A stretch of 64,000 bases of DNA from Pseudodesulfovibrio profundus. GTDB lineage: Bacteria; Desulfobacterota; Desulfovibrionia; Desulfovibrionales; Desulfovibrionaceae. The notes under the pieces are model-generated. The model did not search any database, was not told where the DNA came from, and was given only the letters and a program-made list of their open reading frames with translations. Positions within the stretch are counted from its first letter, which is position 1. Every line of letters begins with the position of its first letter. The DNA is taken from assembly GCF_900217235.1 (NCBI RefSeq), contig NZ_LT907975.1, forward strand, positions 1,283,501 to 1,347,500. Direction: 5' to 3'. A program made the translations under genes and the position numbers. Positions 3,349 through 24,659 of the stretch are shown here, one piece after another.

Positions 3349-3424
3349 GGGGACGTAGCTCAGCTGGGAGAGCGCTGCCTTCGCAAGGCAGAAGTCGGGA
3401 GTTCAAATCTCTTCGTCTCCACCA
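3349..3424 (+). tRNA. tRNA-Ala (anticodon CGC)
   Basis: A complete cloverleaf can be folded by eye. Acceptor arms GGGGACG and CGTCTCC pair with a G3:U70 wobble, the alanine identity element. The anticodon stem CTGCC/GGCAG encloses the loop TTCGCAA (anticodon CGC). A T-loop TTCAAAT and an encoded CCA end at 3424 complete it. The accessory island begins directly downstream, so its 3' end is a plausible integration site. Confidence 0.93.
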
Positions 3425-3427
3425 GAA

Positions 3428-3475
3428 ACATAAAATCCTTTCAGCCGCTTAGCTGAGAGTATTTTTGTTTTATGT
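3428..3475 (+). terminator. Hairpin just downstream of tRNA-Ala
   Basis: Outer arms ACATAAAA (3428-3435) and TTTTATGT (3468-3475) and inner arms CAGC/GCTG form an interrupted stem with a T-rich 3' side. It begins a few bases after the tRNA CCA. It probably terminates the tRNA transcript, although it could equally be part of an attachment-site arm. Confidence 0.4.
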
Positions 3476-3480
3476 CATTT

Positions 3481-3499
3481 TGTACAACCCCTGTACAAC
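3481..3499 (+). repeat. Direct repeat TGTACAAC x2 (11-bp period)
   Basis: TGTACAAC occurs at 3481-3488 and 3492-3499, about 60 bases past the tRNA-Ala end. Short direct repeats beside a tRNA 3' end resemble arm-type integrase sites, but no integrase gene is nearby. Confidence 0.5.
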
Positions 3500-3572
3500 T
3501 TTTCTTATCGGTACTCACCCTCTGTGTATTGATAATACCAATAGTAAGAACATGCACAATCCATAAAAAATA

Positions 3573-4143: not shown

Positions 4144-4166
4144 ATTCTCCTCATGATTGTTTGCGG

Positions 4167-5732
4167 TTATTTGAGAAGTGCTCCACAAAGCATACCGAAC
4201 ATGGCAGGGGGCAGCTCAGTCAAGTCGTTGATAGTACGACTATGATCGGGAAGCAGTTTGGAGATGGCTTCGGACATGATGCCCAGTCCGTAGATTTCGA
4301 CGCCGAAACGCCTTCCACTTTCAATGGCATCGAGTGCCAAATTGAAAGAATCGGGATCTCCGTCTGTTAGAATAAGGATGATCTTCCTGGATTCGTGAAG
4401 CGGTTGCACTTGCTGAAGAACCCACCACAAGGCTTCACCGAGAGGCGTAAAGCCGGTAGCGCTCATGTCGAAGTTGGCGTGAAGCCGTTCTCCATGCCTC
4501 AGTATCGGGCAGACAGTGGGGCCAGTGCCATTATCATTTCCACCATCTGTGGGAGAACCTGCCGGGAATACCGTCACAGCCCCACTGATGCCGTCAATGG
4601 TATCCAGCGCCGTGGCCACGGCATGACAGACCTGTGTGGTCAGCGCGATACGCCGCCGCATGGAGCCGGAACAATCCAGCAAGATATGCACGGCGGTGTC
4701 GATACCCACACGCTGACCATCCCGCTTAAACACGCGAGCATCAGCCACCGACACGCGATGCAGTTGCCGTGCATCCAATCGGCCATTACGACCAACCTTG
4801 CTTCGAGTCATTACTGACGACTGAAGCAGACCTTGTAGTTGCGTCCGCAGGGCAATTGATGCCCGCCTTATTGCGGCAGTATCCTCGGCTTCAAGAGGTT
4901 TTGTCTTCTTGATGCCAACTTGTGCGACATGAAGGGATTCGTCCAATTCTTTGGGTGTTTCCCTACGCAGCCTGCCTGCCAGGAGTTCACCTAGGTCATC
5001 AGGGAGATCATTCTCATCAAAACGAATCAACCGTTTCAAAGCGTCCGAAGGTAGTGCATTAGGCGTCCCCTTTTCAGCCGAATTACCTGAGTTCGATCCC
5101 CCATTTTGCCGGGGCTGAGAAGCCAATTTCTCCTTGAGAAGCGAAACGACTTCCCGAGCATAGAGGATGCAGTCCTGAGTGGAATCGCAGTACGCATTCA
5201 CCTTTATCAAGACATGATTCAACCGCCCGATCAGGCCAGGATAATTGGCTTCAAGGAAGTCGCCGACATCGTCCCGTTGTTCGGTCAGTGACGGTACGTC
5301 CCATGCCCGAACCGACAGCAACAGCCAATTCAAAATGGCCATGGCCGGGTTGGTTGAGTTTTCCGATGCATTCCCGAAAAGATGCCGGATGAGCCAGTTG
5401 AAGTTCGACCGACAGCCGGGGAATAGCCGGGCCAGCCGGTGCTCAACGCGCCAGTCCTCGAACGTATTCCAAACGTGCATCTCCAAGGGAGTCAGATTCG
5501 CCAGCCTGAGCCAGTCAAATCGCGTCTCTCGGATATGCGCGGCCTCATGGTCGATGTAACCGCGAGCCAAGCCTATTAGCGTCTCGCTGCATTCCAATGG
5601 CAATGCGGGCAGGTGGATGGTGTTCCCATCCGTATATGCCCCTCTGCCGCCGATGACGACTTTTACGCCGTACTTGCGCCCAAGCACCGAGGCCACCATG
5701 GGCAATGATCGCATGATGAGTTGATTCTTCAT
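4167..5732 (-). CDS. CobT-like VWA-domain protein with N-terminal HExxH motif
   Basis: About 521 residues. The C-terminal third is a von Willebrand A domain with a complete metal-ion (MIDAS) site: DCSGSM near residue 357, a conserved Thr in TGFTPLGEA near 433 and LTDGDPD near 459. The N-terminal part carries YIDHEAAHIRETRFD (residues 64-78), an HExxH motif seen in CobT-like and phage-borne VWA proteins. The middle has a low-complexity N/G/S linker. CobT, NorD and ViaA proteins act as VWA partners of MoxR/CobS-type AAA+ rings, and such an ATPase is encoded two genes upstream. The ATG at 5732 was chosen; tandem GTGs at 5744 would overlap the previous gene by 7 bases. True cobaltochelatase is unlikely because no CobN or cobalamin gene is nearby. 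Confidence 0.85.
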   Translation of the reverse strand: MKNQLIMRSLPMVASVLGRKYGVKVVIGGRGAYTDGNTIHLPALPLECSETLIGLARGYIDHEAAHIRETRFDWLRLANLTPLEMHVWNTFEDWRVEHRLARLFPGCRSNFNWLIRHLFGNASENSTNPAMAILNWLLLSVRAWDVPSLTEQRDDVGDFLEANYPGLIGRLNHVLIKVNAYCDSTQDCILYAREVVSLLKEKLASQPRQNGGSNSGNSAEKGTPNALPSDALKRLIRFDENDLPDDLGELLAGRLRRETPKELDESLHVAQVGIKKTKPLEAEDTAAIRRASIALRTQLQGLLQSSVMTRSKVGRNGRLDARQLHRVSVADARVFKRDGQRVGIDTAVHILLDCSGSMRRRIALTTQVCHAVATALDTIDGISGAVTVFPAGSPTDGGNDNGTGPTVCPILRHGERLHANFDMSATGFTPLGEALWWVLQQVQPLHESRKIILILTDGDPDSFNLALDAIESGRRFGVEIYGLGIMSEAISKLLPDHSRTINDLTELPPAMFGMLCGALLK

Positions 5733-5737
5733 GTCGA

Positions 5738-6706
5738 TCACCACAACCCGTGGCTGTCTATCTGATGCTCGTGCACCGGTTCAGGAACAAAGTCAGTGGT
5801 GTCCAAAGGTATTTCACCAGTCACAACCGGGATCGTATCCGCAACCAGGCCAGACAAGATGTCGGCTGCATCCTGACCGTCCAGGATTTTCTGACCATGG
5901 GCAATTAGCGTCACAGGATCACGTAGGAGCGAGACCACGCCTTGCAACAGAACCAATACGCTGCCATGGATGTACCCGCGAGCAGGCACACGGTTGAATG
6001 TCGTATCCAGTAAGTCCACAACCGGCACAACACGAGGTTCTACGAAGCTCAGGCCAGACAACTTGGAGTGGATGGAACGCAAAGGAGACAACGCCTTATG
6101 CGTCACCTTGTCTTTCCCTTCAAAGCACCTCTTCCATGTGTCGGTAGCGGCTTTAGCCACCTCATCGAAGAGAGTCCCACCAAGGTCTTTGACTTCATCC
6201 TGCAACCCCTGGTGTACGGCATCATCGGTTGGAGGTAACAGCTTGAACAACTGCCACTTGAAGCCGATACGACTACGCACATAATCCGCACTGACGGTAG
6301 AACTACCGATCAAACTCTCCCAACCAGGATGCTGTGAGATCCAGTCCCGCACAGCCTCGTCATAACGATTGAGGAACTGTTCCTTTGCAGCCAGGAAGTC
6401 ATCTCGAATCACGGTCAGCTCAGACACAATGTCATCAGCCTTATCTTCAGGAATGGCCCATCCACCGAGGAAGCGAACACCGGTTCTATCCAGCAGGTTG
6501 ACTGCACGCGCTTTGAGCGTACCGAAGATACGTAGCTCCTGAGGGTTGCAGATCTTCTTGCTGCCAAGAGAAGCAAGCTCTTCAGGCGGCAAATCAGCAC
6601 CACCAAAATCTGCCGGTGTCAGCTTCTTCCGAGCAGTCCAGATGTTTACATCCAGATTTAAGGCCATCAAATTGTCGAGCACAGTGATGTCCGTATGGGT
6701 ATCCAT
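5738..6706 (-). CDS. DUF3150 family protein
   Basis: A 322-residue soluble protein matching the DUF3150 type found between CobS-like ATPases and CobT-like VWA genes on conjugative elements and phages. Recognisable parts are an N-terminal LNLDVNIWTARKKLTP segment, a G-x-RFLGGWAIPE motif near residue 78 and a mostly helical middle. No catalytic motif is visible. It starts two bases after the ATPase stop and overlaps or abuts the VWA start, so the three are translated as a unit. A structural or adaptor role in the ATPase complex is inferred. Confidence 0.75.
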   Translation of the reverse strand: MDTHTDITVLDNLMALNLDVNIWTARKKLTPADFGGADLPPEELASLGSKKICNPQELRIFGTLKARAVNLLDRTGVRFLGGWAIPEDKADDIVSELTVIRDDFLAAKEQFLNRYDEAVRDWISQHPGWESLIGSSTVSADYVRSRIGFKWQLFKLLPPTDDAVHQGLQDEVKDLGGTLFDEVAKAATDTWKRCFEGKDKVTHKALSPLRSIHSKLSGLSFVEPRVVPVVDLLDTTFNRVPARGYIHGSVLVLLQGVVSLLRDPVTLIAHGQKILDGQDAADILSGLVADTIPVVTGEIPLDTTDFVPEPVHEHQIDSHGLW

Positions 6707-6708
6707 AA

Positions 6709-7692
6709 TTACTCCTTGTTTTCTTGTGGGAATATGCGTTGAGCCAGTTCGTGCAGAATGGTCCGGGTTTCGGAACTTGCACGATAGCCAAGAGCGCGAT
6801 CAAGCGCGTAAGTCACAGGCTGAATGCCTTGCCTTGCGAGAGGTTGAAATCGGACAGTGAGGTCTGCCCACCGAATGAGGGTACGGGTCGAGAACGTCAC
6901 TTCAATGGTGTCACGGTAATTGCCATCAGCTTCACCCATGAAAAGTTTGCGAATCTCATTGGCAAATTCAACCATCTTGGTCCGTACTTCTTTCGGGAGT
7001 TTGGGAGCTTTTCGGTGTAGCAGTTCTCGCTCATCTTTAGGCTTGGGATAGCCAATTTTACAGAGCCAAAAGCGGTCCATGAAAGCCAGGTTCTGCCGAA
7101 GTGTGCCTTGATAGAGACCGGTTTCATCCGTCCCTCCATTAGTGTTGGCTGTGGCTGCAAATCGGAACAATGGATGGGGTTTTATCACTTCACCTCCATT
7201 CTCAGCGATGCACAGCGGATCGCTGTCCAGAATTCCGTTGAGGCCAGCAGCAGTCGCCGGGTCGAGCAGGTCGATCTCGTTGAGGAGGAAGAGCCCTCCG
7301 AATTTCATAGCCAGGGCCAATGGCCCGTACTGAAAACTCATGTTCGAGTCTTCCACGGTCAGATGGCCGACCATATCCGGGAACTCCAGTCGCCCATGTC
7401 CGGTGATGTCGAAGACGGGGTAATTGAGCTTGGCGGCAAGCTGTTTGATAAGGCTGGTCTTTCCACTGCCAGCAGGGCCGAACACATAGAGCGGGTCGGA
7501 CGAATCCATGAACCACACGACCGCGTCTCGGCTGGAATCATGGAACAGGTACTCAGAGTTAAGGTCAGGGGTGAACGAAGATGCGGACGCAAATCCACGG
7601 ACCTTGCGTTTGGACTTCTTGCCACTGAAAATTTCACCGGCGTCATGATCGATTGGCTGCAAAGATTGCAGTTCCTTGAGAATATCAGTCAT
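6709..7692 (-). CDS. MoxR/CobS-like AAA+ ATPase
   Basis: A 327-residue AAA+ ATPase. Walker A GPAGSGKT is at residues 72-79, Walker B LFLLNEID at about 134-141 with the NEID form usual in MoxR/CobS relatives, sensor 1 lies in AATANTNG near 179-186, and a candidate arginine finger is in MDRFW near 207. Members form hexameric rings that remodel target proteins through a VWA partner. AAAGGAG precedes the ATG by eight bases, and a terminator-like hairpin lies just upstream of that site. Full length and close packing with DUF3150 and VWA genes support a functional trio. Confidence 0.9.
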   Translation of the reverse strand: MTDILKELQSLQPIDHDAGEIFSGKKSKRKVRGFASASSFTPDLNSEYLFHDSSRDAVVWFMDSSDPLYVFGPAGSGKTSLIKQLAAKLNYPVFDITGHGRLEFPDMVGHLTVEDSNMSFQYGPLALAMKFGGLFLLNEIDLLDPATAAGLNGILDSDPLCIAENGGEVIKPHPLFRFAATANTNGGTDETGLYQGTLRQNLAFMDRFWLCKIGYPKPKDERELLHRKAPKLPKEVRTKMVEFANEIRKLFMGEADGNYRDTIEVTFSTRTLIRWADLTVRFQPLARQGIQPVTYALDRALGYRASSETRTILHELAQRIFPQENKE

Positions 7693-7718
7693 GCTTTTCT
7701 CCTTTGGAAACGAGAAAA

Positions 7719-7746
7719 CCCCGAACCTGCTTGCGCAGATCCGGGG
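7719..7746 (-). terminator. Terminator/attenuator hairpin upstream of the MoxR gene
   Basis: On the minus strand CCCCGG...CTGC pairs with GCAG...CGGGG, and the stem is followed by TTTTCTCG and then the AAAGGAG site of the ATPase gene. It may end the toxin-antitoxin transcript or act as a leader attenuator. A hairpin of the same layout precedes erf. Confidence 0.6.
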
Positions 7747-7774
7747 CTTGGTTTAATTGTATTTTTTTTAACGG

Positions 7775-8044
7775 TTATCTTGATTCTTTCGAATGCCAAA
7801 GTCGTAAAATATACACAGACTCGTCTTTCACGAGGTAGCGCACTACATAGCGACCAAATACGAATTCACGGACGTTTTCGATATCCTCAAGAGGTCGCCC
7901 GATACGGGGCATTTCAATAAATCGGTTGATGGCAGCCTTCAGGTTGAGCACAGTCGTGCTGGCTGTCTCAACGTCATGCTTGGCCAGGAAGTCGTGGAGC
8001 CGTTTCAAGTCCTGAACGGACTCGGGCGAGAACCTTATTCGCAT
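7775..8044 (-). CDS. RelE/ParE-family toxin
   Basis: An 89-residue protein with the RelE/ParE toxin fold signature: IRFSPESVQDLKRLHDFL at the start, IGRPLEDIENVREFVFG in the middle and YVVRYLVKDESVYILRLWH with a basic C-terminal end. Such toxins either cut mRNA on the ribosome (RelE) or poison gyrase (ParE). The conserved hydrophobic and Arg pattern fits the wider superfamily and does not settle which. Its start overlaps the antitoxin end by 10 bases, as usual for antitoxin-first pairs. Confidence 0.88.
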   Translation of the reverse strand: MRIRFSPESVQDLKRLHDFLAKHDVETASTTVLNLKAAINRFIEMPRIGRPLEDIENVREFVFGRYVVRYLVKDESVYILRLWHSKESR

Positions 8045-8307
8045 TCCGGAGCATCCGTTTCTGCTTCAGTTCCCCAGCTGTCCATCCAAGCAAAGACCTC
8101 GTCGCCTTCGACGAACCTCCCAGCCTCTATGCTTTCGATGGCCAACAGAGTTTCTTCGCGACGTTTCGCCTGCTCCTCATGCTCGGCCACAAAGTCAGCC
8201 ATGAACTCCCGCAGGAGATGACTTGAATTTTTGCCTTCGCGTTTGGCTATGGCTTCAAACTTGTTCTTGAGGGCGGTATCGACCCTCGCCCGAATTGTTT
8301 CTTGCAT
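8035..8307 (-). CDS. Ribbon-helix-helix type antitoxin
   Basis: A 90-residue acidic protein with an N-terminal RHH/CopG-like DNA-binding segment (TIRARVDTALKNKFEAIAKRE and SSHLLREFMADF) and an acidic C-terminal part that would bind the toxin. It precedes and overlaps the RelE/ParE gene. It probably autoregulates the pair and may help keep the surrounding element in the genome (inferred from addiction modules in general). Confidence 0.85.
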   Translation of the reverse strand: MQETIRARVDTALKNKFEAIAKREGKNSSHLLREFMADFVAEHEEQAKRREETLLAIESIEAGRFVEGDEVFAWMDSWGTEAETDAPECE

Positions 8308-8366
8308 TGCTCCTCCAATCTGTAGCTACATTATGCCACAGGGGGTGAAGTGTAAACCTTTTTTAC

Positions 8367-9584
8367 TCAGGCTGCTAACTTCAATGGTTTGTTGATCTTG
8401 CCGATGTACAGCCGATCATGCGGCTTTCCCTCCTTTTCACATTGCTCCAAAGCGGTTTGGACCTTGAGCTCATCGCCGATCAATGAGGCCAACTTATCCA
8501 CCACCGGCGAGCGATCCAGCGTCTTTCGACCAGCTACGGTTGTGACCCGGAAACGGTGGGCGCCGGTCGAGATCCAGTCCTGTGTTCCGATCAAACTGTA
8601 CGTCTGCCGGATACGTTCTTCAGCATCTGTGATGCGTTCTTCCAAGACGGCCTTTCTTTCCTTGAGCATTGCAAGTTCTTCCAACTCCAAGCCGCAAGCG
8701 GAATCCGAGGGGATGCTCGCGGCCTGAAACTTGGGACAGTCCCCGTTGACATCGCACCAGTCACATAAGGGATGAAAGCCCCGGCAGTAATCCAGATCAC
8801 TCAACCCCAGGTTGCCTGCTCGCACATCTTCCGCCGCCCGCCAGATTGCCACAGCCGTTTGCATACATGCCTCAAGCATATCCATATCCGGCAAGTATGG
8901 CCCGAACGGTTTCACTTCGGACATGGAGATTGAAAGAACCCAAGCCTCGACATCCACGTTATCCGATGACTCGGGAAGGTCCACGCCGAACATTTTCTTT
9001 ATGGCTTGCGGGAATGTGACTTGCCGTAAATCCGTCTGTGGAACTGAAAAGCACGGCTGTGCCCAGCAGGACTTAAGCAGTCCAACCTGGCCATAGAGCT
9101 GCGCTTCGTACGACGCATAAAGTGACTCCGGAATGCGCCCATTGCTCTTGAGTTCCAAAATCCGGACAGCAGGTCGTTTCCCACCCCAAACCAGGGTGAA
9201 GTCAAGGTGAGCCTTGATAGTCACGCCATTGTGCTCGATAGAGATCTCAAGCTGCGGCACCAGCTTCACGCCGGTAGCTGTGAGAGCCTTCTCAATGCCA
9301 TACTCCTGCCAGTGACCACGCTGCAGGATGATCTGTCGCCCAAGAACACGGACCAGATCCTCATGGGCAAGTTCCCCCACGTCGGTTGTGGCGGGAATAG
9401 CGGATATGCCGAGCTTACTCGCAACGGCTGCCCGCATACACTCCACCCCCTTGCCGATGTCTGACATGCCGATGTACTGGCTGCGGTTTCCAAGTTCACT
9501 GGCGGTCTTCTCCTCGGCGTGGGCCAGAAGGCCTTGTGTCAGCAGCCGCATCAGCTCCTGTGCTTTGATTGTATCAGGCTGCAT
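8367..9584 (-). CDS. PD-(D/E)XK nuclease with Cas4/AddB-like Fe-S cysteine cluster
   Basis: About 405 residues. The nuclease core shows HLDF (catalytic Asp) followed after a GGKRPA turn by RILELKSN (the E-x-K pair), with a preceding conserved His in a HEDLVRVLG helix. A C-terminal cysteine group, YCRGFHPLCDWC then GDCP, fits the 4Fe-4S cluster of Cas4/AddB-type exonucleases. A late helix pair looks like a coiled coil. The ATG at 9584 has GGAGGT six bases upstream; a nearer ATG at 9590 touches the ribosome site. It overlaps the end of erf by 11 bases. An annealing protein with an exonuclease mirrors phage Red-type recombination pairs. Confidence 0.82.
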   Translation of the reverse strand: MQPDTIKAQELMRLLTQGLLAHAEEKTASELGNRSQYIGMSDIGKGVECMRAAVASKLGISAIPATTDVGELAHEDLVRVLGRQIILQRGHWQEYGIEKALTATGVKLVPQLEISIEHNGVTIKAHLDFTLVWGGKRPAVRILELKSNGRIPESLYASYEAQLYGQVGLLKSCWAQPCFSVPQTDLRQVTFPQAIKKMFGVDLPESSDNVDVEAWVLSISMSEVKPFGPYLPDMDMLEACMQTAVAIWRAAEDVRAGNLGLSDLDYCRGFHPLCDWCDVNGDCPKFQAASIPSDSACGLELEELAMLKERKAVLEERITDAEERIRQTYSLIGTQDWISTGAHRFRVTTVAGRKTLDRSPVVDKLASLIGDELKVQTALEQCEKEGKPHDRLYIGKINKPLKLAA

Positions 9585-10145
9585 CGGCATACCTCCACCA
9601 GACCTTACGATTGCCATCCCAGCGGAATCCGGCTTTACGCAGGAATTCTTTCTTCGCGTGGGTATCACCGGTCGCAAGCACGCATTGCTTGCCGTCACTG
9701 GCTGTACCTTTTCGATACTGTACGCCATCAAGACGAGGCAGATTAACCATACCAGTACCACTACCCACGGCAACCGATTTCGGCTGTGAATCGTCCGAAT
9801 TCATCCCGTGGCTACGGGGTGAAAATGAGGAGTTGTACGATTCTCTTTGATGAGATGCCATTTCGCCATCATCATCACTTTCGGTCACAATCCCTATCAA
9901 AGCCGACAATCCATATCGACGAGCATAGGTCATGGCCGAGCCATATCCTTGGGGATCATTCTTCGGCAGCGGCATGGTTAACAATGATGCCTGCCATTGT
10001 CCTGTCTCAGCATGGACGATTTTGGTCACCAGCCCAAGCTGGTTCGCCTCGACCGATACCGGGTACTGGGTCAGCCAGATGCCGTGCTGAAGCAGAGCAT
10101 CACTGCAGGCATTCATGACAGAATGAAGCGTTGCATACCGACTAT
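9574..10145 (-). pseudogene. ERF-family single-strand annealing protein, 3' part (gene split by IS256)
   Basis: This fragment encodes the core of an ERF (essential recombination function) protein. YATLHSVMNACSDALL is followed by the signature DPQGYGSAMTYARRYGLSAL and a DDDGE acidic end, then a C-terminal domain with GKQCVLATGDT and WRYADAA. ERF proteins anneal complementary single strands for phage and mobile-element recombination. The first base pairs at the right (10138-10145, CCGACTAT) are the target duplication of the inserted element, and the N-terminal part lies at 12925-13041. Joining the two halves with one target copy gives an open frame of 226 residues. Confidence 0.85.
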
Positions 10146-10261
10146 GGTAGTGTCCCACGACGTGGTGTAATTGGGGGTAAAGCCTCAAGGTCTTGAAAGA
10201 GGCCGCCGTTCGTTCCATAGGGTTTTGTAGCTAAAACAAGCCCGAAGGAGGAACGAACGGC

Positions 10262-11106
10262 ATGCCTGAGAAGAGAATGACAGGTCGGGACGGGTTCGAC
10301 AAGATTTTCGTCGAGTCCCACGGCGACTGGCTGCGTGAGATGGTCACGGCGATCGTGCACGAAGTGATGGAGGCTGAGGTGAGCGCAATAGCTGGAGCCG
10401 GCTACGGCGAACGAAAGGCGGAGCGGAACACGCACCGCAATGGCTACCGGGAGCGTCAGTGGACGACCCGAGTCGGCGACATTGATCTGCACATCCCGAA
10501 GCTCCGCGAGGGGTCGTATTTTCCGACGTTCCTGGAACCCCGCAGGCGCTCCGAGAAGGCCCTGATCGGCGTTATCAAGGAAGCCTACGTCCAAGGCGTG
10601 TCCACGCGCCGTGTGGAACGATTGTGCCAGCAGATGGGCATCGAGCGGATGGACAAGAATTTCGTTTCGCGCATGGTCCAGGACATCGAGGCTGAGGTTT
10701 TGGCGTTCAAGTCCCGCCCCCTGGAGGGCGAGTTCCCGTATGTGTTTGTGGATGCACGCTACGAGAAGGTCCGCCGGGAAGGCCGCGTGACAAGCATGGC
10801 GGTGCTGGTGGCCGTTGGCGTACGCATGGACGGCCACCGTGAGGTGCTTGGAGTGGAGCCCACGATGGGAGAACGCTATCTCCTGTGGCGGGATTTCCTG
10901 CAGGATCTGACCAGCCGTGGGTTGCAGGGCGTCCGACTGATAGTCAGTGATGCCCATGAAGGTTTGAAGCGGGCCATCACCGAAGTTTTTTCCGGAACAA
11001 GCTGGCAGCGTTGCCGCGTTCACTTCATGCGCTCCATGCTGGCTCATGTTTCCAAGCGCTATCAGCCAATGGTGTCCGCGTTGCTCAAGACCATTTTCGC
11101 CCAGCC
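10262..11106 (+). pseudogene. IS256-family transposase, 5' part (split by IS3)
   Basis: It encodes the N-terminal and most catalytic part of a Mutator/IS256 transposase. Visible motifs are NGYRERQWTTRVGDIDL, IPKLREGSYFP, VDARYEKVR with the first catalytic Asp, and SDAHEGLKRA with the second. The reading frame is broken at FAQP by the nested IS3 element. Rejoined with 12476-12857 it gives 408 residues, the usual length. A good AAGGAGG site precedes the ATG. Confidence 0.9.
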
Positions 11107-11178
11107 TGCGCTTTCCCCCGAAATTCGGACCACCGGTTAAGGTGGAGTCAGCGTCCTTAAACCGATAAGGAAGGACGC

Positions 11179-11457
11179 ATGACAAAGAGCAGCAAAAGAC
11201 GGAAACATTCGGACAAGTTTAAGGCCAAGGTCGCACTTGAGGCGATTCGTGGCGTGAAGACGCTTGCGCAACTGGCTGCGGAGTACAAAGTGCACCCCAA
11301 TCAGATTTCCACGTGGAAGCGGCAGCTCCTTGAGAATGTCGATGACATCTTTTCCAGTGGCAAGAAAGCCAAAAGCCAGGAGGAGATAACCGCACCGTTA
11401 TTTGAGGAGATCGGTCGGCTCAAGATGGACATCAAGTGGCTTGAAAAAAAGTTGTAA
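11179..11457 (+). CDS. IS3-family transposase OrfA, copy 1
   Basis: A 92-residue helix-turn-helix protein (FKAKVALEAIRGVKTLAQLA, then YKVHPNQISTWKRQLL) with a C-terminal leucine-zipper-like end (LKMDIKWLEKKL). It recognises the IS ends. Near its stop is the run A7G (11444-11451), and the -1 frame is open from there into orfB, so an OrfAB fusion by ribosomal frameshifting is likely, as known for IS3 elements. Confidence 0.93.
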   Translation: MTKSSKRRKHSDKFKAKVALEAIRGVKTLAQLAAEYKVHPNQISTWKRQLLENVDDIFSSGKKAKSQEEITAPLFEEIGRLKMDIKWLEKKL

Positions 11458-11471
11458 GCCTGCCGCTTGAG

Positions 11472-12299
11472 GTGCGCCGCCAGTGGATCAAACCAGATCG
11501 GGAGTATTCCATCCGGCGGCAATGCAAGTTGGCAGGCATTTCCCGTTCGGGATTTTACTACAAGCCTGTAGCCGAATCCGATGAAAATTTGGCCCTGATG
11601 CGTCTGATCGACGAGCAGTACCTGCGTCAGCCTGATTACGGCTCGCCGCGCATGACAGATTGGCTGAGGACACAAGGGCATCAGGTCAACCACAAGCGGG
11701 TTGAGCGACTGATGCAGATGATGGGCTTGCAGGCCATTACTCCAGGGCCGCATACGAGTGTCCCCAACCCGGAGCATCCCGTGTTTCCTTATCTGCTGAA
11801 AGGAGTTGCCATTGAACGAAAAAATCAAGTCTGGAGCGCTGATATCACCTACATCCCCATGCAGCGCGGCTTTCTGTACCTGGTGGCAGTGATAGACTGG
11901 TGGAGCCGCTTCGTGCTGGCTTGGGAGCTATCGAACTCGATGGATAGTTCTTTCTGCGTGGATGCGCTCAACAAGGCTTTGCGCATCTCTACGCCGGAGG
12001 TGTTCAACACGGACCAGGGAGCGCAGTTCACGAGTCGTGAATTTACCGGAGTTCTGCAGAGCAAGGGAATTGCAATCAGCATGGACGGCAAAGGTCGCGC
12101 AATCGACAACGTCTTCATTGAGCGGCTGTGGTGGACGGTGAAATATGAGGATATTTACCCCAGGGCGTACTGTGATGGGATCGAGCTATACCATGGGCTT
12201 ACGCGCTATTTTCGGTACTACAACGAGGAGCGCGGTCATTCGTCGTTGGACAAAAGAACTCCCGCTGACGTATACAGGGGCAACTTGAATGTTCATTGA
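11472..12299 (+). CDS. IS3-family transposase OrfB (DDE integrase domain), copy 1
   Basis: 275 residues with an HTH_21-like start (SIRRQCKLAGISRSGFYY) and an rve-type integrase core. The three acidic residues are in WSADITYIPM, FNTDQGAQFTS and DNVFIERLWWTVK (the Glu). The GTG start lies in the -1 frame relative to orfA. It appears intact and potentially active. The stop is followed by a structured GC-rich tail and not directly by the IS end. Confidence 0.94.
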   Translation: MRRQWIKPDREYSIRRQCKLAGISRSGFYYKPVAESDENLALMRLIDEQYLRQPDYGSPRMTDWLRTQGHQVNHKRVERLMQMMGLQAITPGPHTSVPNPEHPVFPYLLKGVAIERKNQVWSADITYIPMQRGFLYLVAVIDWWSRFVLAWELSNSMDSSFCVDALNKALRISTPEVFNTDQGAQFTSREFTGVLQSKGIAISMDGKGRAIDNVFIERLWWTVKYEDIYPRAYCDGIELYHGLTRYFRYYNEERGHSSLDKRTPADVYRGNLNVH

Positions 12300-12309
12300 C
12301 TTGGCTCGT

Positions 12310-12380
12310 AGCCGTTGCTCCGCTCCGCCCTCGGCCCTTCGGGCCGCCCCTACGGGGACGGGCTACGCTCCACAACGGCT
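12310..12380 (+). repeat. Structured GC-rich tail of IS3 copy 1
   Basis: Arms AGCCGTTG (12310-12317) and CAACGGCT (12373-12380) enclose further small hairpins GGCCC/GGGCC and CCCC/GGGG. The same block is found in copy 2 (about 19906-19976) and copy 3 (about 45821-45891). It lies between the orfB stop and the IS end and probably folds in RNA. A terminator or stability role is possible. Confidence 0.6.
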
Positions 12381-12475
12381 ATGGCGACCCGCCTCCTCGG
12401 AGGCACAAACTCGGACGCCGGGCTCCACCTTAAAAAGACCGATCAGTGGTCCAAAGGATGGGGGGAGGCGCAGCC

Positions 12476-12857
12476 CACCCTGGAAGAGGCCCGTAGGGAA
12501 CTGCGCAATGTGGTCGATGCGCTTGAGCCTAAATTTCCAGACGTGGCAAAGCTCGTGGAGGAGGCTGAGGACGAGGTGCTGACCTACATGGCGTTTCCAC
12601 CAGAGCATTGGCGCAAACTGTACTCCACGAATATGCTGGAGCGCCTCATGCGGACAATCAAGGCCCGCACCCGAGTGGTCAGCATCTTCCCTGACGAGAG
12701 GTCGCTGGAGCGCCTGGTTGGCGCCGTACTGATCGAAGAGAACGAGGAGTGGATGGAGGCCCGGCGCTATATCAGCGAAGCCTCAATGGCCAAACTCAAC
12801 GCCGCCCGGCCCCAGCTCCCCCCGCGGGGGGAGCTGGGCCTGGAAGAGGCCGCGTAG
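12476..12857 (+). pseudogene. IS256-family transposase, 3' part
   Basis: It continues the broken transposase. TLEEARRELRNVVDAL leads to STNMLERLMRTIKARTRVV, which holds the catalytic Glu, and then to FPDERSLERLVGAVLIE. The last codons contain a perfect 28-bp palindrome (12811-12838, arms CCCAGCTCCCCCCG). There is no start codon of its own, so this half is not translated alone. Confidence 0.9.
12811..12838. repeat. Perfect 28-bp palindrome at the 3' end of the IS256 transposase
   Basis: Arms 12811-12824 and 12825-12838 are exact complements and very GC-rich. It lies inside the last codons of the transposase and could fold into a strong RNA hairpin there. Confidence 0.75.
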
Positions 12858-12924
12858 GGGATCGAAAGGAAGGTAGTAACCCTGGGAGCTAAGACGGAAT
12901 TACACCACTTGACGGGACACAACT

Positions 12925-13041
12925 CCGACTATTGGTGAAAGTGTTCTCTGCATCCTTGAGCGCAGGAGAAAGAGTCTGCTGCACTTGAATCATCGCCTCC
13001 GCCAATTCCGTAATTTCTGGTGAACTCATTTGGGAATTCAT
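12925..13041 (-). pseudogene. ERF-family annealing protein, 5' part
   Basis: The first 39 codons of erf, starting MNSQMSSPEITELAEAM at 13041 with a strong GAGGAGGT site nine bases upstream. The frame enters the IS at TFTNSR. With the IS and one CCGACTAT copy removed it reads on as NSRYATLHS, the conserved ERF start of the core domain. The split therefore results from a single insertion. Confidence 0.85.
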
Positions 13042-13065
13042 GATTACCTCCTCGAAAAGATAAAA

Positions 13066-13094
13066 CCCCAGTGTCGCGAGATGCGACACTGGGG
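13066..13094 (-). terminator. Perfect hairpin directly upstream of erf (leader attenuator or terminator)
   Basis: Arms CCCCAGTGTCGC (13066-13077) and GCGACACTGGGG (13083-13094) with a 5-base loop. On the minus strand the stem is followed by TTTTATCTTTT and then the erf ribosome site, so it sits between any upstream promoter and erf. Confidence 0.65.
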
Positions 13095-13184
13095 TAGTTG
13101 GTCAAACCGAAGCTAAAAAGAACTAGCTCTCATGGAGGTGATATATATCTGTATTTTTTTGAAAAGCAGGTAACGGCTGGCGCT

Positions 13185-13229
13185 CTGTCACGCCGGAGGC
13201 CGAGGGTTCGAGTCCCTTCGGCTCCGCCA
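13185..13229 (+). pseudogene. 3' half of tRNA-Asp (GTC), attachment-site scar
   Basis: The sequence from CTGTCAC (anticodon loop with GTC) through the 3' anticodon stem, variable region, T-arm (GAGGG TTCGAGT CCCTT) and acceptor strand CGGCTCC plus GCCA matches the 3' half of a tRNA-Asp. The 5' half is missing: upstream bases cannot form the D-arm or the GGAGCCG acceptor strand. Such a half is what integration at a tRNA anticodon loop leaves at the far end of an element. A 16-bp terminator follows directly. Confidence 0.8.
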
Positions 13230-13233
13230 GTAA

Positions 13234-13274
13234 AGAACAAGGATCTTAATCGTTTAGGTTAAGATCCTTGTTCT
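13234..13274 (+). terminator. Strong terminator after the tRNA-Asp fragment
   Basis: Arms AGAACAAGGATCTTAA (13234-13249) and TTAAGATCCTTGTTCT (13259-13274) are perfect 16-bp complements with a 9-base loop, followed by ATTTTC. It is probably the original terminator of the tRNA-Asp gene. Confidence 0.8.
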
Positions 13275-13293
13275 ATTTTCTGGTCCGAAAAAC

Positions 13294-13317
13294 ATCGGAC
13301 ACATCCATCGGACACAT
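13294..13317 (+). repeat. Direct repeat ATCGGACACAT x2 (13-bp period)
   Basis: ATCGGACACAT at 13294-13304 and 13307-13317, 65 bases after the tRNA-Asp fragment. The position parallels the TGTACAAC pair after tRNA-Ala. It may be an old integrase arm site. The remaining sequence to 13450 shows no gene. Confidence 0.6.
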
Positions 13318-13450
13318 TTTTATTTTTAGGTAGTAATCGCGCAGGGTTGGAATGTGCGATTTTGTCGCGGCTTCCGGCTATATGCGCTTATCCTCTTGGA
13401 TTTGCTTGAGAAGTGGGATGGGTCAGGTTTTTGAAGGATGAGGCTCAGAT

Positions 13451-14385
13451 TTAGTATAGTCCATCGCCTTCTAGGGCTTTATCAATCTTGTGGTCTAGTT
13501 CTTTCCAATAGCATTCATGGAATCTACCTTTTCCTAAAAACATAAACACCGAACCTTCTTTAGGGTCGTCGTTCAGTCGAGGAATCTCAATAATAGTATA
13601 TTGCAATACGCTCTTTGGTAGCCCCTTTTGTGGTGGAAAGCCTTCAAAGTCCTCAGAATGCAGATAAGTGTCATTGAATATGCCGCCAAGAGTGGTGAGT
13701 GGGGCAAGTTCTTGGTGGACAGTAGGCAAAATGAAATGGAAGGCGTAATTGTCAATATCCTTCTGTTTTCCAGCGTATTGGGTTTCATCTGGTTGTATGA
13801 CAATTATTGTGCAGCTTATAGGGTGCAGAAGAGGCTTCTGAAGCCTGTATTTTGCCATCTGTTTTTTTAACTTTTGTTCAATCCGTTCTTTGAAGTCTGA
13901 GGAATCACCTTGCTTCAACGGTGGAGAACCCAGTGCTACACAGCTCGGCAAACCGAGGATTTGCCTGCGGTGAATCTTGTAAAGTTCCTGTTTTAAGTTT
14001 TTCAAATAATCTTCATGAGTTTCATAGCCGGACATCAACGTTTCAAACATGCCGAAATTGAAGTCGATAACTCCCAAGAGGTCTTCTTGTCTTTGGCTGT
14101 CGCTCATGTATTGCATCGCAGCGATTGCTTTGTCTCCTAACACACCATCATAATCTGCTGGATCAAAAGAGGAATCATGCTCTTGATGATACCTATTGCC
14201 TTCATCTAGGTGGTGGGGGGACAAATTGTTTAATAGGGCTAAGTCCTGGACTAGGTGGTCAAGCTTATCAACCTTGAGTCGTAAGCAAGGTTTCATGTGC
14301 TTAACTGGGTCCACTTCTTTTAAAAAGTAGAAGTTGACACTTAGAAATTTTATTTGGGAGTCGTCTTTCATCAGCAGCCGACCCC
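13451..14385 (-). pseudogene. RusA-like protein, 3' part (gene split by an IS3-family element)
   Basis: It encodes the C-terminal ~310 residues of a 421-residue protein. Two segments recall RusA Holliday-junction resolvases: LLMKDDSQIKFLSVNFYF directly after the break, and KDIDNYAFHFILP followed by NDTYLHSED near the end. RusA uses a DxDN motif and a DDxQ motif as its metal ligands. The order and spacing differ from a classical ~120-residue RusA, so it may be a two-domain relative or only a look-alike. Base composition is A+T-richer than the housekeeping genes. The gene resumes at 15676. Confidence 0.6.
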
Positions 14386-14446
14386 AGAAGTGGCCTCGGT
14401 TCTTCGGACCACTGAGCGACGATTTTAAGGTGGACACGTTTACGAG

Positions 14447-15609: not shown

Positions 15610-15675
15610 GAATTGCCTCCTTCGGGCAGTTTATGTCCACCTTATCGAGTGGTCCAGTTTTCCGAGGCCACTTCT

Positions 15676-16042: not shown

Positions 16043-17722
16043 CTATACTTTGAAGAATTTGTCAGCCTGTGAAAGAGTCAAAACAGTATTTGAGTCACAG
16101 AATTTTTCGCCTAAGGGATGTAGTTTGTAGCTTAGAACCGCCACGATTGTTTGCGCTTTGTTCTTGTTTGCAAAGTTAAAAAGCTTTTCGATCTTGTCGT
16201 CATCAACGGCTTCGATGTAGTCCTGCATTGTGAATTGCGGAAGTTTTGAGTTTGTTTCTTGTGAGTATTTCACCAACGCTAACTCAAAAGTCATTGCAGC
16301 GGCGCGAGGTGCGCCATCACCTGAAATTTCATCTTCCTTTTGAATACTGAAAGTGATTTTTCCGTCATCACTGGATTCCTTTTCAAGCTTGAGGGGGACA
16401 CCAAAAACATTTTGGGCAAGGGGTGTGTACTCCTTGTTGAAGACTGCAATCTTGTTGTTAAATGAGTTCTCAAGTTCTTCATTGATTGCTCGAAGCCTTT
16501 TCAGTTCACTATCGAGATGCTCTGATTCTGAATCAATACGTTTGACTTCTAGTACTACAAAATTAACTTGTCCCCGTTTTTCTCGCTGTTCTTGGATTGC
16601 TTTTTCGATCAAGATGAAGCCATCTAGTTGACCTGCTGCTGCGACCTCTTTTACCAGTCTCTCCTCGTTTTTTAGGTGTGCTCTTAGCTCGAGTCGCTGA
16701 GTCGTAAGTTCTTTTTCAATTTTTTCGACTTGGTCCTTTACATAGCGGGCTTTGCTTTCAAGCATCGAATTGTGAAAGGCGACAGTCTCTTCAAATGATT
16801 TTGACAGGTCTGGGATGAGAGCTTTGGCCTCTTCATAAATATTTCTTATAGTCTGTGTGTCTACTTGTTGGACTTTGTTTTCGTATTCATCAATGGTTTT
16901 TTTGTAGTAGACTAATCTGATTTCTAGGTAAGAGACACTGGATGAAAGGTTGGCAATTTTCGACCGTACCTCTTGTAATTTTTGGATTACAGATTCTTGA
17001 ACGCCAGTGATATCAATCGCTTCTTCTTTCTCTGAAAGGATTTGAATCTCTTTGTCTATGCTAGCGAGTTGCTTTTCATAATGGGCGAGGTGGCGTGCGT
17101 TGAGTATAGCTTTCCGGCGGCTTTGAATGTCTGAAAGGCGTTTATTAAGCTTGTACTCTTTTTGGAGTTTGTCCTCACCGTCAAATCCGAAAAGGTATAA
17201 GTTGACGAAACGGTATTCGTCGTCGGATGTGTATGAATGAAGGTATTTGAGTGTTTGGTTTGAGCTCTTTTTGAAAACTCTAAAAAAACGTCTTTTAATT
17301 TGTTTGAATGTTGGACGTGCCACAGTGTGGCCAAGTGTTGACGGTAGCACTTGCTGAAAAGATGTGTCAGTCGTGTATTCAGTCCCATCAATGGTGCTAA
17401 GGATTCTAATCTGCCGTCCTTTTAGAGTTGCACAGCGGGTTATCGTGCTTTGATAGCCGTTGATGGAAACCACTAAATGAAAGACTACATTTCCAGATGT
17501 CAAAAATTGCTTTACATCCTTGTTTGCCGCTTTTGTCTCAGGGTCTGTCCAAAGCTGATGGATGTCACCACCAAGGCAAAAATCAATGGCACGCAATGCT
17601 GTGCTTTTCCCAATCTGATTTCCAGCAGCATCTTGGTTGGTGATGATGTTTAGTCCTTTCTTGAAAGGAATGTCTCGGATTAGCTTGTCACCGCTAAACA
17701 ACTGGAACTTAATTAGCTGCAT
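16043..17722 (-). CDS. ABC-three-component (ABC-3C) system ATPase, DUF2326-like
   Basis: A 559-residue SMC/RecN-like ATPase. An N-terminal half-site has Walker A AGNQIGKSTALRAIDF at about residues 34-49. It is followed by long coiled coils (for example EKQLASIDKEIQILSEKEE and residues ~325-440 with heptad character), and a C-terminal lobe carries FTMQDYIEAVDDDKIEKLF where the second half of the ATP site should lie. This matches the DUF2326-type large subunit of ABC-3C systems, predicted NTP-dependent conflict systems that gate an effector. It overlaps the middle component by ten bases. The region is A+T-richer than the flanking chromosome, which suggests transfer. Confidence 0.82.
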   Translation of the reverse strand: MQLIKFQLFSGDKLIRDIPFKKGLNIITNQDAAGNQIGKSTALRAIDFCLGGDIHQLWTDPETKAANKDVKQFLTSGNVVFHLVVSINGYQSTITRCATLKGRQIRILSTIDGTEYTTDTSFQQVLPSTLGHTVARPTFKQIKRRFFRVFKKSSNQTLKYLHSYTSDDEYRFVNLYLFGFDGEDKLQKEYKLNKRLSDIQSRRKAILNARHLAHYEKQLASIDKEIQILSEKEEAIDITGVQESVIQKLQEVRSKIANLSSSVSYLEIRLVYYKKTIDEYENKVQQVDTQTIRNIYEEAKALIPDLSKSFEETVAFHNSMLESKARYVKDQVEKIEKELTTQRLELRAHLKNEERLVKEVAAAGQLDGFILIEKAIQEQREKRGQVNFVVLEVKRIDSESEHLDSELKRLRAINEELENSFNNKIAVFNKEYTPLAQNVFGVPLKLEKESSDDGKITFSIQKEDEISGDGAPRAAAMTFELALVKYSQETNSKLPQFTMQDYIEAVDDDKIEKLFNFANKNKAQTIVAVLSYKLHPLGEKFCDSNTVLTLSQADKFFKV

Positions 17723-21009: not shown

Positions 21010-21612
21010 TTATGAATTTGAGATTACTTTTTTTGCTATCAGGACAACCACAAATGGAGCAGCGCAGTATACTGTTGGGAGCATGTAAATATTAATAAAG
21101 TACATCAGCCGATAATAGTTTCTAGCGCAGCGAGTTGTGGAAAAGTCATCTGGGTATTCTGAGATCATTTTTCTGTAATCTACAGGCAGGTGGTTAAGGT
21201 CATGGCAGTCTATTATCTCAGAGTATCGATCAGCAAAGTCCTGAACTTTTTCTTGGTCAATAGCCTCATTGCCTAGTTCAATAGCAATTGCCTGTTGCAG
21301 CCTGTGGAGCCTATTGGCACATCTATGGTAGCTGTCTGAATGGCTTAGTAGTTTGCTCAAGGAATCTTGGTTGGCGATCACGAGAATGATTACAGATGCC
21401 ATCAAGGTTAAGTATTCTGACTTACTTTCACCAACAAAGGGGATGTAATACCCACAAATTGTTGATATTGCGATAACTACCTGGAAAATTGATAGGAATG
21501 AAATAGCAAAGACAAGGGCTTGGTGCTTCTTTCTTGATCTTTCAGCCGCAGTGTAGCGTGATTTTTCAGTGCTCCACACTCTGTTGGACAGTGCTTCAAG
21601 TTTCTTTCGCAT
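21010..21612 (-). CDS. SLATT-domain membrane effector (family 5-like)
   Basis: A 200-residue protein. The amphipathic N-terminal helix (ALSNRVWSTEKSRYTAAER) precedes two membrane helices near residues 31-52 (LVFAISFLSIFQVVIAIST) and 67-82 (YLTLMASVIILVIANQD). A helical LSKLLSHSDSYHRCANRLHR segment follows, and a C-terminal membrane segment lies near 172-193. This is the SLATT pattern (SMODS and SLOG-associating 2TM effector), predicted to form pores that kill or arrest the infected cell. Family 5 members are reported next to reverse transcriptase genes, which fits the fragment upstream. Confidence 0.75.
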   Translation of the reverse strand: MRKKLEALSNRVWSTEKSRYTAAERSRKKHQALVFAISFLSIFQVVIAISTICGYYIPFVGESKSEYLTLMASVIILVIANQDSLSKLLSHSDSYHRCANRLHRLQQAIAIELGNEAIDQEKVQDFADRYSEIIDCHDLNHLPVDYRKMISEYPDDFSTTRCARNYYRLMYFINIYMLPTVYCAAPFVVVLIAKKVISNS

Positions 21613-22278: not shown

Positions 22279-23546
22279 GAGACCTCTGCACGGCAAATCC
22301 CACACTTTTACTCTTTAACTATTTGATTTATTATGCTATTATTTCTCCATCCAAAGGAGGAAGGCATGGCTATTCGGCAGAAAGGACCTCGGTTGGGTGA
22401 TTACTTCCTGGGGCACCGCAGAACCAAGACCACATTTCTGGATGAGATCAACGAACTCATCGACTGGCAGCCCATCAACGCCTTTCTGTGCAAGAAGATC
22501 AGGCGCAAGGCCAACGCCGTGGGCAATCCCGCCTATCCGCCTCTGGCGATGTTCAAGATTCTGCTCTTGCAGCGTTGGTACAACCTGAGTGATCCGGGCG
22601 TGGAGCAGGCGCTGCTCGACCGGCTCTCCTTTGTCAGATTTACCGGTTTTTCCATCGAGGACGACGTGCCGGACGAGACCACCATATGCCGTTTCCGTAA
22701 CGGTTTGATCCGCCTGAAGGTGCTGGACTCCTTGCTCGACATGCTTAACCGCCAGCTTGAAGGACAAGGGCTTCTTGTCCGTGAGGGAGCCGTGGTGGAC
22801 GCCTCGGTAGTCGAGTCGCAGCGGCGGCCGCGCAAGGTTATCGACGTGATGCCTGAGGACCGTTCCGAGGACGCCGAAGAACAGGATGGGCCGGTGGACT
22901 GCCGGGTCAGCTATTCGGATGACGAGGAGGCGGCCTGGCTCCGCAAGAGAAATCGGGCCTATTACGGCTACAAGCTCCATGCCGCGACGGACAGTCGAGA
23001 CGGGTTTCTGCTCTGTGGTCACATCACTCCCGCGAACCATTCGGACACGGGCGAATTCGAGCGGCTCGTGAATGGCGTCGGCCTTGATCCCGGCGCACGG
23101 GTTTATGCGGACAAGGGCTATTGCAGCGGGAAGAACCGGGACATTCTGTTTGATCGCGATTTGGAGGACGGAACCATGGACAAGACGCCTCGTGGCGGCA
23201 GGCTGACAGACTTCGAAAAGACCCGCAACCGTGACATCAGCAGCATTCGGCAAATAGTCGAGCGGGCCTTCGGCACACTCAAACGTGGCTACGCATTCTT
23301 TCGGTCCCGATACGTGGGTCGTGAGAAGGTGGAGGGAGAGTTCCACATCCTCGCCATGGCGTTCAATTTGAAAAAAGCTGTTCGACTGGCGCGAGCCTGA
23401 AGGGAGAGGTGCGTCCAAAATCCGGCATTTCGGCCAGAAATGGCAGGAAAAGGCCGGGAATGAGCCCAAGCTGGGGTGCGGTCAGAACATCAAATTGGGT
23501 GCGGAGCGCAAGGCACGGACGCGAAAAGGGGATGCGCAGAGGTCTC
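22279..23546 (+). mobile_element. IS5-family element (about 1268 bp) at the island's right edge
   Basis: Terminal repeats are GAGACCTCTGCAC (22279) and, at 23546, the complement of GAGACCTCTGCGC. It holds one transposase gene. No matching target duplication is seen (TTT to the left, GAC to the right). Combined with the cut reverse transcriptase gene, this suggests an adjacent deletion or recombination after insertion. Confidence 0.82.
22366..23400 (+). CDS. IS5-family transposase
   Basis: 344 residues from the ATG (MAIRQKGPRLGDYF) behind an AAAGGAGG site. It has a DUF772-type N-terminal domain (FKILLLQRWYNLSDPGVEQAL, DETTICRFRNGL), the catalytic Asp in GAVVDASVVES, a second Asp in VYADKGYCSGKN and the Glu in IVERAFGTLKRGYAF. 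The acidic linker with DRSEDAEEQD is normal for this group. It appears complete and potentially active. Confidence 0.93.
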   Translation: MAIRQKGPRLGDYFLGHRRTKTTFLDEINELIDWQPINAFLCKKIRRKANAVGNPAYPPLAMFKILLLQRWYNLSDPGVEQALLDRLSFVRFTGFSIEDDVPDETTICRFRNGLIRLKVLDSLLDMLNRQLEGQGLLVREGAVVDASVVESQRRPRKVIDVMPEDRSEDAEEQDGPVDCRVSYSDDEEAAWLRKRNRAYYGYKLHAATDSRDGFLLCGHITPANHSDTGEFERLVNGVGLDPGARVYADKGYCSGKNRDILFDRDLEDGTMDKTPRGGRLTDFEKTRNRDISSIRQIVERAFGTLKRGYAFFRSRYVGREKVEGEFHILAMAFNLKKAVRLARA

Positions 23547-23828: not shown

Positions 23829-24257
23829 ATGAATACATATAGCCCGAAGCCGGAAGACGCGAACCACGAATGGTTCATCGTCGACGCCACGGACAAAATC
23901 CTGGGTCGCCTCGCCACCGAGATCACTACTCGTCTGCGCGGCAAGCACAAACCTGAATTCGCCCCCCACATGGACATGGGTGATTTCATTGTTGTCATCA
24001 ATGCCGAGAAAATCAAGGTCACCGGCCAGAAGCTCGACAGCAAGATGTACTACAAGCACTCCAACCATCCCGGCGGTCTCAAGGAAAAGACTCTGCGCGA
24101 GATGCTGGACAAGAAGCCTGAGAATGTCATCACAGCCGCCGTCAAGGGCATGCTGCCCAAGAACAAGCTGGCCACTCAGCAGTTGAAGAAGCTGAAGGTC
24201 TATGCTGGCAGCGAGCACCCGCACGCAGCCCAGGCTCCCAAACCTCTGGAATTTTAA
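23829..24257 (+). CDS. rplM: 50S ribosomal protein L13
   Basis: 142 residues, the usual length. Signature stretches are [54 protein letters not shown] and [11 protein letters not shown]13 is an early-assembly large-subunit protein. AAGGAG lies eight bases before the ATG. It is co-transcribed with rpsI, the universal bacterial pair. It marks the return to conserved chromosome after the island. Confidence 0.98.
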
Positions 24258-24269
24258 TCGGGGATTACT

Positions 24270-24659
24270 ATGAGCGATTTCACTTACGCCACTGGCAAAC
24301 GTAAAAATGCGATCTCCCGTACCCGCCTGTACGCCGGTACCGGCCAGATCACTGTCAACGGTCGTCCTTTCGAGGACTACTTCCCTCGTAAAACCCTGCA
24401 GATGGTTGTTCAGCAGCCTCTGAAGCTGGTCAAGATGCTCGACAAGTACGACATCAAAGCCAACTGCTGCGGCGGCGGCGTTTCCGGTCAGGCAGAAGCC
24501 CTGCGCCACGGCATCGCCCGCGCACTCTGCGAGATCGATCCTGAACTCCGCGCTGTTCTGAAGCCCGCCGGTCTCCTGACCCGCGATGCTCGTAAGAAAG
24601 AGCGTAAAAAGTACGGTCTCCGCGGCGCACGCGCCAGCTTCCAGTTCTCCAAGCGTTAA
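24270..24659 (+). CDS. rpsI: 30S ribosomal protein S9
   Basis: 129 residues with [20 protein letters not shown] at the N-terminus, [19 protein letters not shown] in the middle and the basic tail [17 protein letters not shown] that reaches the P-site tRNA. It follows rplM by 12 bases and is followed by a clear terminator. Confidence 0.98.

Follow-up and report, generated by a model that had tools for sequence, protein, structure and literature searches.

Fragments of tRNA genes are established marks of the ends of genomic islands (PMC4383910, PMC9897764). In the Islander set of tDNA-integrated islands, whose table holds 2083 islands, a crossover at the anticodon loop is termed subsite A, and a tRNA fragment arises from such a crossover by an island that restores its target gene (PMC4383910); the tRNA-Asp fragment described below is of this kind. 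The account of PYG1 describes an island flanked by a full and a partial copy of the tRNA gene (PMC9897764), whereas the present locus retains one tRNA-Asp end only. CIMEs and tandem ICE/IME accretion, as described in PMC5704250, share with the present genus the occurrence of tandem units at one tRNA gene, some with att ends and with no integrase found. The tripartite ICE named ICE3 is comparable in that att sites of several integrases occur in one element and that segments lie apart on the chromosome (PMC5882170). As far as these descriptions go, most of what is seen here falls within the known range of CIMEs, tandem accretion and tripartite ICEs (PMC5704250, PMC5882170). The oddest parts are the cassettes that share one end and contain no detected integrase, and the apparent overwriting of T-arm alleles by incoming elements; in open-access papers, searched with a selection of wordings, T-stem alleles flipped by successive integrations were not found described.

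The stretch analysed, called the window, comprises 64,000 nucleotides of Pseudodesulfovibrio profundus (C1:1283501-1347500; genome of 4.22 Mb in three contigs). It contains an island with the following features and borders.

3349..3424, + strand: intact tRNA-Ala(CGC), the island's left border; core synteny ends at 3428
3426..3560, + strand: left element end behind tRNA-Ala(CGC), with TGTACAAC repeats at 3481-3502
4167..13041, − strand: operon ERF / 468-aa ORF / CobS-like / DUF3150 / CobT-like
4167-5744, − strand: CobT-like gene
5738-6706, − strand: DUF3150 gene
6709-7692, − strand: CobS/CbbQ-like AAA gene
8367-9773, − strand: 468-aa ORF between the ERF and CobS-like genes
9574-10143, − strand: ERF-family gene (PF04404); its 38-aa piece at 12926-13041 is assigned by position only
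10144..12925, + strand: Mutator-type transposase gene copy inserted in the ERF gene
11107-12473: rve/HTH_21 (IS3-type) element interrupting the Mutator-type transposase gene
13185..13229, + strand: orphan 3' half of tRNA-Asp(GUC), GAGGG T-stem allele
13230..13432, + strand: conserved element end (the module): about 100 conserved bp preceded by a terminator-like hairpin and two ATCGGACACAT repeats
13451..14383, − strand: first gene of the cargo that follows the module, without a family match, cut by an IS3-type element at 14385-15675
16043..17722, − strand: DUF2326/AAA protein with a PADLOC match to PDC-M68B and LmuB (Lamassu-like defence)
21010..21612, − strand: SLATT_5 protein, of a defence-associated 2TM effector family
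22279..23546, + strand: IS5-type element (DDE_Tnp_1, DUF772), the island's right edge and a rearrangement breakpoint
23829..24659, + strand: L13 and S9 ribosomal protein genes of the core, at which the conserved chromosome resumes

The tRNA-Asp half and its resident counterpart

The 45 bases at 13185-13229 spanned tRNA-Asp(GUC) from the anticodon loop to CCA, exactly where the sequence-only reading had placed an intact 3' part of this tRNA, and the 5' half was absent. The 45-mer was found once in the window and, by whole-genome search, once in the genome at ≤3 mismatches; a chance origin was rejected, as 0 of 100 shuffles gave a match. ARAGORN and Rfam detected no complete tRNA-Asp in the window, the sole tRNA being tRNA-Ala(CGC), in agreement with the earlier statement that the only complete tRNA nearby is a tRNA-Ala of non-matching sequence. 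The half has no complete cloverleaf and does not qualify as a functional tRNA-Asp gene. A degraded 5' half upstream, which had been said to be missing, was likewise rejected: 6 of 32 bases were identical in register, and the best local alignment score was within the shuffle range, with 346 of 2000 shuffles and 89 of 1206 window places scoring at least as high. The best-aligned upstream stretch includes the AAAAGCAG edge, which was present also in some other copies of the operon. No second half was found in the window.

A single intact tRNA-Asp (GUC) gene was detected in the genome; it lies at C1:1446008-1446084 on the minus strand, 149 kb away from the half and inverted relative to it. The two sequences were identical at 41 of 45 positions, and the four differences formed two compensated T-stem pairs (GAGGG/CCCTT in the half vs GCGAG/CTCGT in the resident gene), so that pairing was kept. 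A search of tRNA-Asp 3' ends revealed no tRNA-Asp left end in + orientation in the genome, and none of the 26 PF00589 (tyrosine integrase) matches of the genome fell inside C1:1,188,036-1,628,375, leaving none within 100 kb of the half. These results supported the claim that the tRNA-Asp left end and the integrase are missing here. The half showed the 3'-type fragment and anticodon-loop boundary of the Islander signature; the cognate intact tRNA, which that signature places 2-200 kb away in the correct orientation, was at 149 kb on the opposite strand, and no tyrosine integrase lay between gene and fragment. The window is thus unlike the Islander islands described in PMC4383910, in that its cognate gene is inverted, bears the other T-stem allele and is separated from the fragment by no integrase. 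The different T-stem alleles, the inversion and the distance of 149 kb also spoke against the half being a simple displaced end of the present resident tRNA-Asp.

The search for an integrase beside an intact tRNA-Asp gene, proposed together with the sequence-only reading, failed in the own genome (0 of 26 PF00589 matches nearby) and succeeded in relatives. At five or more loci (at least G010, G016, G031, G058 and G009; 13 genomes searched), the opposite strand had a PF00589 match downstream of a tRNA-Asp 3' end and within 300 bp of it. An integrase just downstream on the opposite strand is the usual layout of tRNA-targeting elements. When three tRNA-Asp-adjacent integrases were compared with window positions 3401-24000 by tblastn, only matches with E of 0.2 or worse were obtained. 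As a positive control in the same genome, intact tRNA-Phe at C1:2102772 and its 42/42 half at 2134530 lie on one strand and enclose a copy of the operon together with an integrase.

A second orphan half was observed at C1:1188804-1188845 (L047/L248), matching an initiator-like tRNA-Met(CAT) with 97.6% identity over 42 nt. It adjoins a tyrosine integrase gene at 1187550-1188035 on the minus strand, and the intact gene lies about 500 kb away at C1:686836.

Element DNA on both sides of the half

The left segment, composed of element end and operon, covers 3426-13167; its upstream similarity to other operon copies ended at 13167, 17 bp before the half. The left element end was also found directly behind tRNA-Ala(CGC) in G032 and G024. 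An element extending from tRNA-Ala(CGC) to its own half was rejected, since no such half was found in the window or in C1:1256000-1452000. DUF3150 relatives were present in 14 of the 36 genus genomes and, always at <60% identity, on 1146 plasmid records, 979 of which were predicted to be conjugative. The 468-aa ORF had no match in Pfam, NCBIfam or PADLOC, yet it was found in many copies of the operon.

The upstream edge of the operon was followed by a tRNA-Asp half in the window genome and, in degenerate form, in G017; G006 and G032 have a tRNA-Ala(GGC) half there instead. No half was recognised at this edge in further copies compared (two in the own genome, G034, and C71 of G017), and the G017 operon had a tRNA-Phe half (93%) beyond its other side. 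Together with the left end shared with G032 and G024, the differing halves at one operon edge suggested that ends of different tRNA specificity have been exchanged around a common operon. The sliding identity of the operon was that of a mosaic: 3426-3825 was closest to tRNA-Ala(CGC)-anchored copies, each of the five 400-bp intervals in 3826-5825 was nearest to a different copy (G025, G032, G017, G006 and G018), and from 5826 on, 10 of 12 intervals were nearest to the own tRNA-Phe copy (cp2; 8) or to G034 (2), the two that broke this pattern being nearest to cp3 and G033. The mosaic signal is patchy, which counts against a composite reading of the island. The tRNA-Ala(GGC) halves beside a DUF3150 operon lie at L209:8241-8284 and L207:10079-10121, and the T-stem of the one in G032 differs from that of the intact gene of the window's genome.

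On the right side, half and module together form an element end of ~240 bp. By BLAST, the 203-bp module stretch was found at 26 distinct places in 18 of 148 genomes (28 rows, of which two repeat a place on the opposite strand), some matching in the terminator part only, and at 24 of the 26 the sequence immediately before it was a tRNA-Asp 3' end, whether intact or degenerate. It followed intact tRNA-Asp in G020 (93% over 242 bp, half included), G012, G016, G004 and G011, and tRNA-Asp halves in G010, G014, G009 and G002. The exceptions were L126 (G001) and L139 (G087); a third, outside the 26, was G033, where the DUF3150 operon is joined to the inner part of the module. In L126 (1501-1895), the inner module is inverted and adjoins a tRNA-Ala(GGC) half, with intact tRNA-Ala(GGC) about 10 kb away, so the end sequence is not confined to tRNA-Asp. 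With a longer query, eight copies that were similar from 13185 on ended at 13415-13431 (L149, L151, L153, L154, L155, L156, L157 and L159) and others stopped earlier; the similarity of L139 reached 13624, inside the first cargo gene of the window. That the module might be an intact integrase C-terminus was rejected, because its frames shift or stop among copies and the three tRNA-Asp-adjacent integrases gave no match. Half plus module had no phage match, and 13270-13440 of the window no plasmid match.

The cargo behind the module varied. G014 and G004 had a Mrr-type restriction gene, G010, G002 and G012 had type I restriction-modification, and G010, G002, G032 and G041 had a gene of 335-355 aa without known family; the cargo of the window is interspersed with several IS copies. 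All ORFs ≥80 aa of the G012 unit (four) and of the 1.6-kb unit of G010 (two) were scanned without an integrase match, and none was present among the 25 of 39 families listed for the large module units of G010 and G002. One conserved end with many cargoes, including restriction and other defence genes, and with no integrase seen so far could matter. The 1.6-kb units, which occur in two genera, consist of a tRNA-Asp half, the module, one 335-355-aa gene and the next half (L152:131-1819, L160:70-1758, L120:4016-5715), and a fourth copy of the gene was observed in L165 (G032). The structure model of the 335-aa protein of these units had a mean pLDDT of 41 and was not useful. Tandem direct repeats of ~11-13 bp were observed just inside tRNA-linked element ends (GGATACTCACC twice, TGTACAAC twice, ATCGGACACAT twice), at 3481-3502 of the window and in L047, L022, L110 and L150. 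They resemble integrase arm sites, for which we take them to be candidates.

At the level of sequence, these comparisons demonstrated that the half is a real att-type fragment of tRNA-Asp with element DNA on both sides, and that it is a junction rather than a simple element end: a further element end, found in relatives mostly behind tRNA-Asp 3' ends, makes up the DNA on its right. Recombination at the tRNA-Asp anticodon loop, as first proposed, agrees with the standard boundary of the half and its recurrence in relatives. The proposal that it marks the far end of an integrated element was supported as regards the att relic and, as worded, not supported as regards a simple end, since another element end begins to its right; a larger original element, which had been said to be necessary, is not required. 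As a relic the orphan half is ordinary and of a common kind, and its history is unusually readable here.

The reading we prefer, with a probability of about 0.68, is that the half is an att-site relic (attR or a tandem junction) in a composite island with mismatched ends. It rests on the standard boundary, the recurrence behind intact tRNA-Asp in relatives and the mostly tRNA-Asp-linked element end that follows. Integrative elements would recombine at the anticodon loop of tRNA-Asp and bring a replacement 3' half. One tRNA-Asp element, or several in an array, from a background with the GAGGG allele may then have been joined to the tRNA-Ala(CGC) island. The probable route is homologous recombination at the ERF/DUF3150 operon that they share, and this joining would have cost the element its tRNA-Asp left end and integrase. 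Judged as a CIME, the window has no integrase gene, and attL and attR are not both kept; unlike those described in PMC5704250, the unit in the window has only one recognisable tRNA-Asp att end and is known from sequence alone.

Alternatively, the right-hand element (half, module and defence cargo) might have entered as a circle at a non-tRNA site by the DUF3150 operon, bringing its own half. Integration at such a secondary site would account for a half without a tRNA-Asp 5' part and without a left end; a secondary attachment site has been reported for SGI1 (PMC2297512), and in G014 a GAGGG half with the same module lies 1.4 Mb from the full tRNA-Asp gene, its only other tRNA-Asp 3' end. We consider this unlikely, because neither another half nor another core copy was found to the right of it in the window, and because G017, a second species, also has a half behind this operon edge, which would not be expected of independent random sites. 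A relic of a multipartite ICE, in which, as in tripartite ICEs, each segment lies between the attL of one integrase and the attR of a different one, would fit the mismatched ends in the window (Ala-CGC/Asp), G032 (Ala-CGC/Ala-GGC) and G017 (Phe half/Asp half). We regard this origin as highly improbable: the segment contains no integrase, and no partner segment with reciprocal ends was found in C1:1256000-1452000. Compared with ICE3 as described in PMC5882170, neither reciprocal segments in that interval nor the integrase set was found in the window genome.

tRNA-Asp 3' ends and T-stem alleles in the genus

The half was matched at ≤2 mismatches in 41 of 148 genomes, the own genome included, and nearly all of 30 matching loci scanned contained intact tRNA-Asp. 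The half is identical to the 3' part of intact tRNA-Asp genes in relatives. At ≤3 mismatches, 77 tRNA-Asp 3' ends were found in the 36 genus genomes, 34 of which had at least one. The 66 of these 77 that were classified comprised 40 full genes, 25 orphan halves and one end masked by Ns, giving at least 25 orphan halves in 15 of the 36 genomes. In 10 of the 15 (G001, G002, G010, G012, G016, G018, G022, G027, G029 and G035), a half lay downstream of the full gene on the same contig and strand, for example at 118948 behind the gene at 111178 in G016, and at 82752 behind the gene at 76051 in G035, both in the same orientation. The bases just 5' of the halves fell into a few shared classes, which represent right ends of elements.

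Among genus copies without mismatch to the degenerate pattern, only two T-stem states were observed, one carried by the half of the window and the other by the resident gene. Five genomes (G000, G009, G010, G014 and G022) had at least one half with an allele other than that of the full gene. In G010, the full gene at 540986 (GAGGG) was followed in the same orientation by halves at 550344 (GCGAG), 566932 (GAGGG) and 568576 (GCGAG, with one mismatch). With two compensated T-stem states and both kinds of half in one array, such arrays may record the replacement of alleles of an essential tRNA by mobile elements.

Allele changes were counted on trees built from the flank 5' of the tRNA gene. In the sequence covered, full tRNA-Asp linked to tRNA-Val was present in 31 genomes, from which G029 was omitted for its short flank. 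On the 30-genome tree the T-stem alleles required seven changes, four of them forced; on a 25-genome tree, made by removing the very long branches of G023, G013, G009, G016 and G020, they required five, three of them forced by well supported branches. A C/T difference in the 5' half required three changes on both trees. Equally few changes were obtained in 82 and 70 of 500 label shuffles for 30 genomes, and in 172 and 178 of 500 for 25 genomes. This result is compatible with frequent allele switching and is not proof of it; the alleles were hardly clustered, which does not indicate the mode of change. The numbers of changes for 25 genomes (five for the T-stem, three for the 5' half) are compatible with recombination at the anticodon loop.

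The half could also be a displaced resident end, if an ancestral GAGGG tRNA-Asp had been overwritten by a GCGAG element and the old half pushed out, later to be inverted and carried 149 kb away. At each integration the displaced half should keep the older allele, and the mixed GAGGG and GCGAG halves of the G010 array, like the five changes (three forced) on the 25-genome tree, are in line with this. On the other side, the sister genome G030 likewise has GCGAG, no other tRNA-Asp half lies beside the resident gene, the DNA adjoining the half is a mobile end not proven to be old chromosome, and the clustering of alleles was no different from that in many shuffles. We regard such a displacement as quite improbable.

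In a wider, tentative and rather doubtful picture, tRNA-Asp would serve as a docking port throughout the genus. Integrase-less cassettes with a portable end of ~240 bp (tRNA 3' half, terminator, direct repeats) would be loaded, swapped and stacked by the integrases of co-resident elements; each integration would replace the T-arm allele of the host tRNA-Asp by that of the visitor, so that the gene flips between two compensated alleles and orphan halves form a time-ordered record of visitors.

The IS5-type element and the surrounding chromosome

Conserved synteny stopped at 3428 and resumed at ~23.6 kb with the genes for L13 and S9. The core genes to the left (1728-3293) and right (24833-26131) are 22 kb apart in the own genome. 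Among the relatives searched in the genus, nine have both on one contig, at a distance of 65 kb in G003 and of 0.15-2.0 Mb in G001, G002, G004, G006, G010, G014, G018 and G022; the two genes are also oriented differently to each other in G003 and G004 than in the own genome. The block that precedes L13 in G001, G004, G006 and G018, but not in G022, is found here at C1:3400637, 2.1 Mb away, where it adjoins a second IS5-type copy (C1:3399253-3400520) that is 100% identical over 1268 bp to the element at 22279-23546. A 4-bp flank, GACA, borders the IS5-type element on both of the separated core sides, as would be the case if a single IS insertion had afterwards been divided by recombination. The outer flanks differ (TTTT and AATA), which calls for a third copy or one more event. 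Within the composite island preferred above, IS insertions and an IS5-associated rearrangement, partly shown by these copies, would have brought the L13/S9 core region alongside.

The tRNA-Ser(TGA) gene that neighbours the block labelled Q here was not near tRNA-Ala(CGC) in G001, G004, G006, G018 or G022. Two results count against the proposed joining of a tRNA-Asp element to the tRNA-Ala(CGC) island. The reciprocal product expected of a simple inversion between the two tRNA loci, a tRNA-Ala(CGC) half, was not found in C1:1256000-1452000. The order of the core right of the island relative to tRNA-Asp was as in G018 and G022, which argues against a simple inversion, as this would reverse the order.
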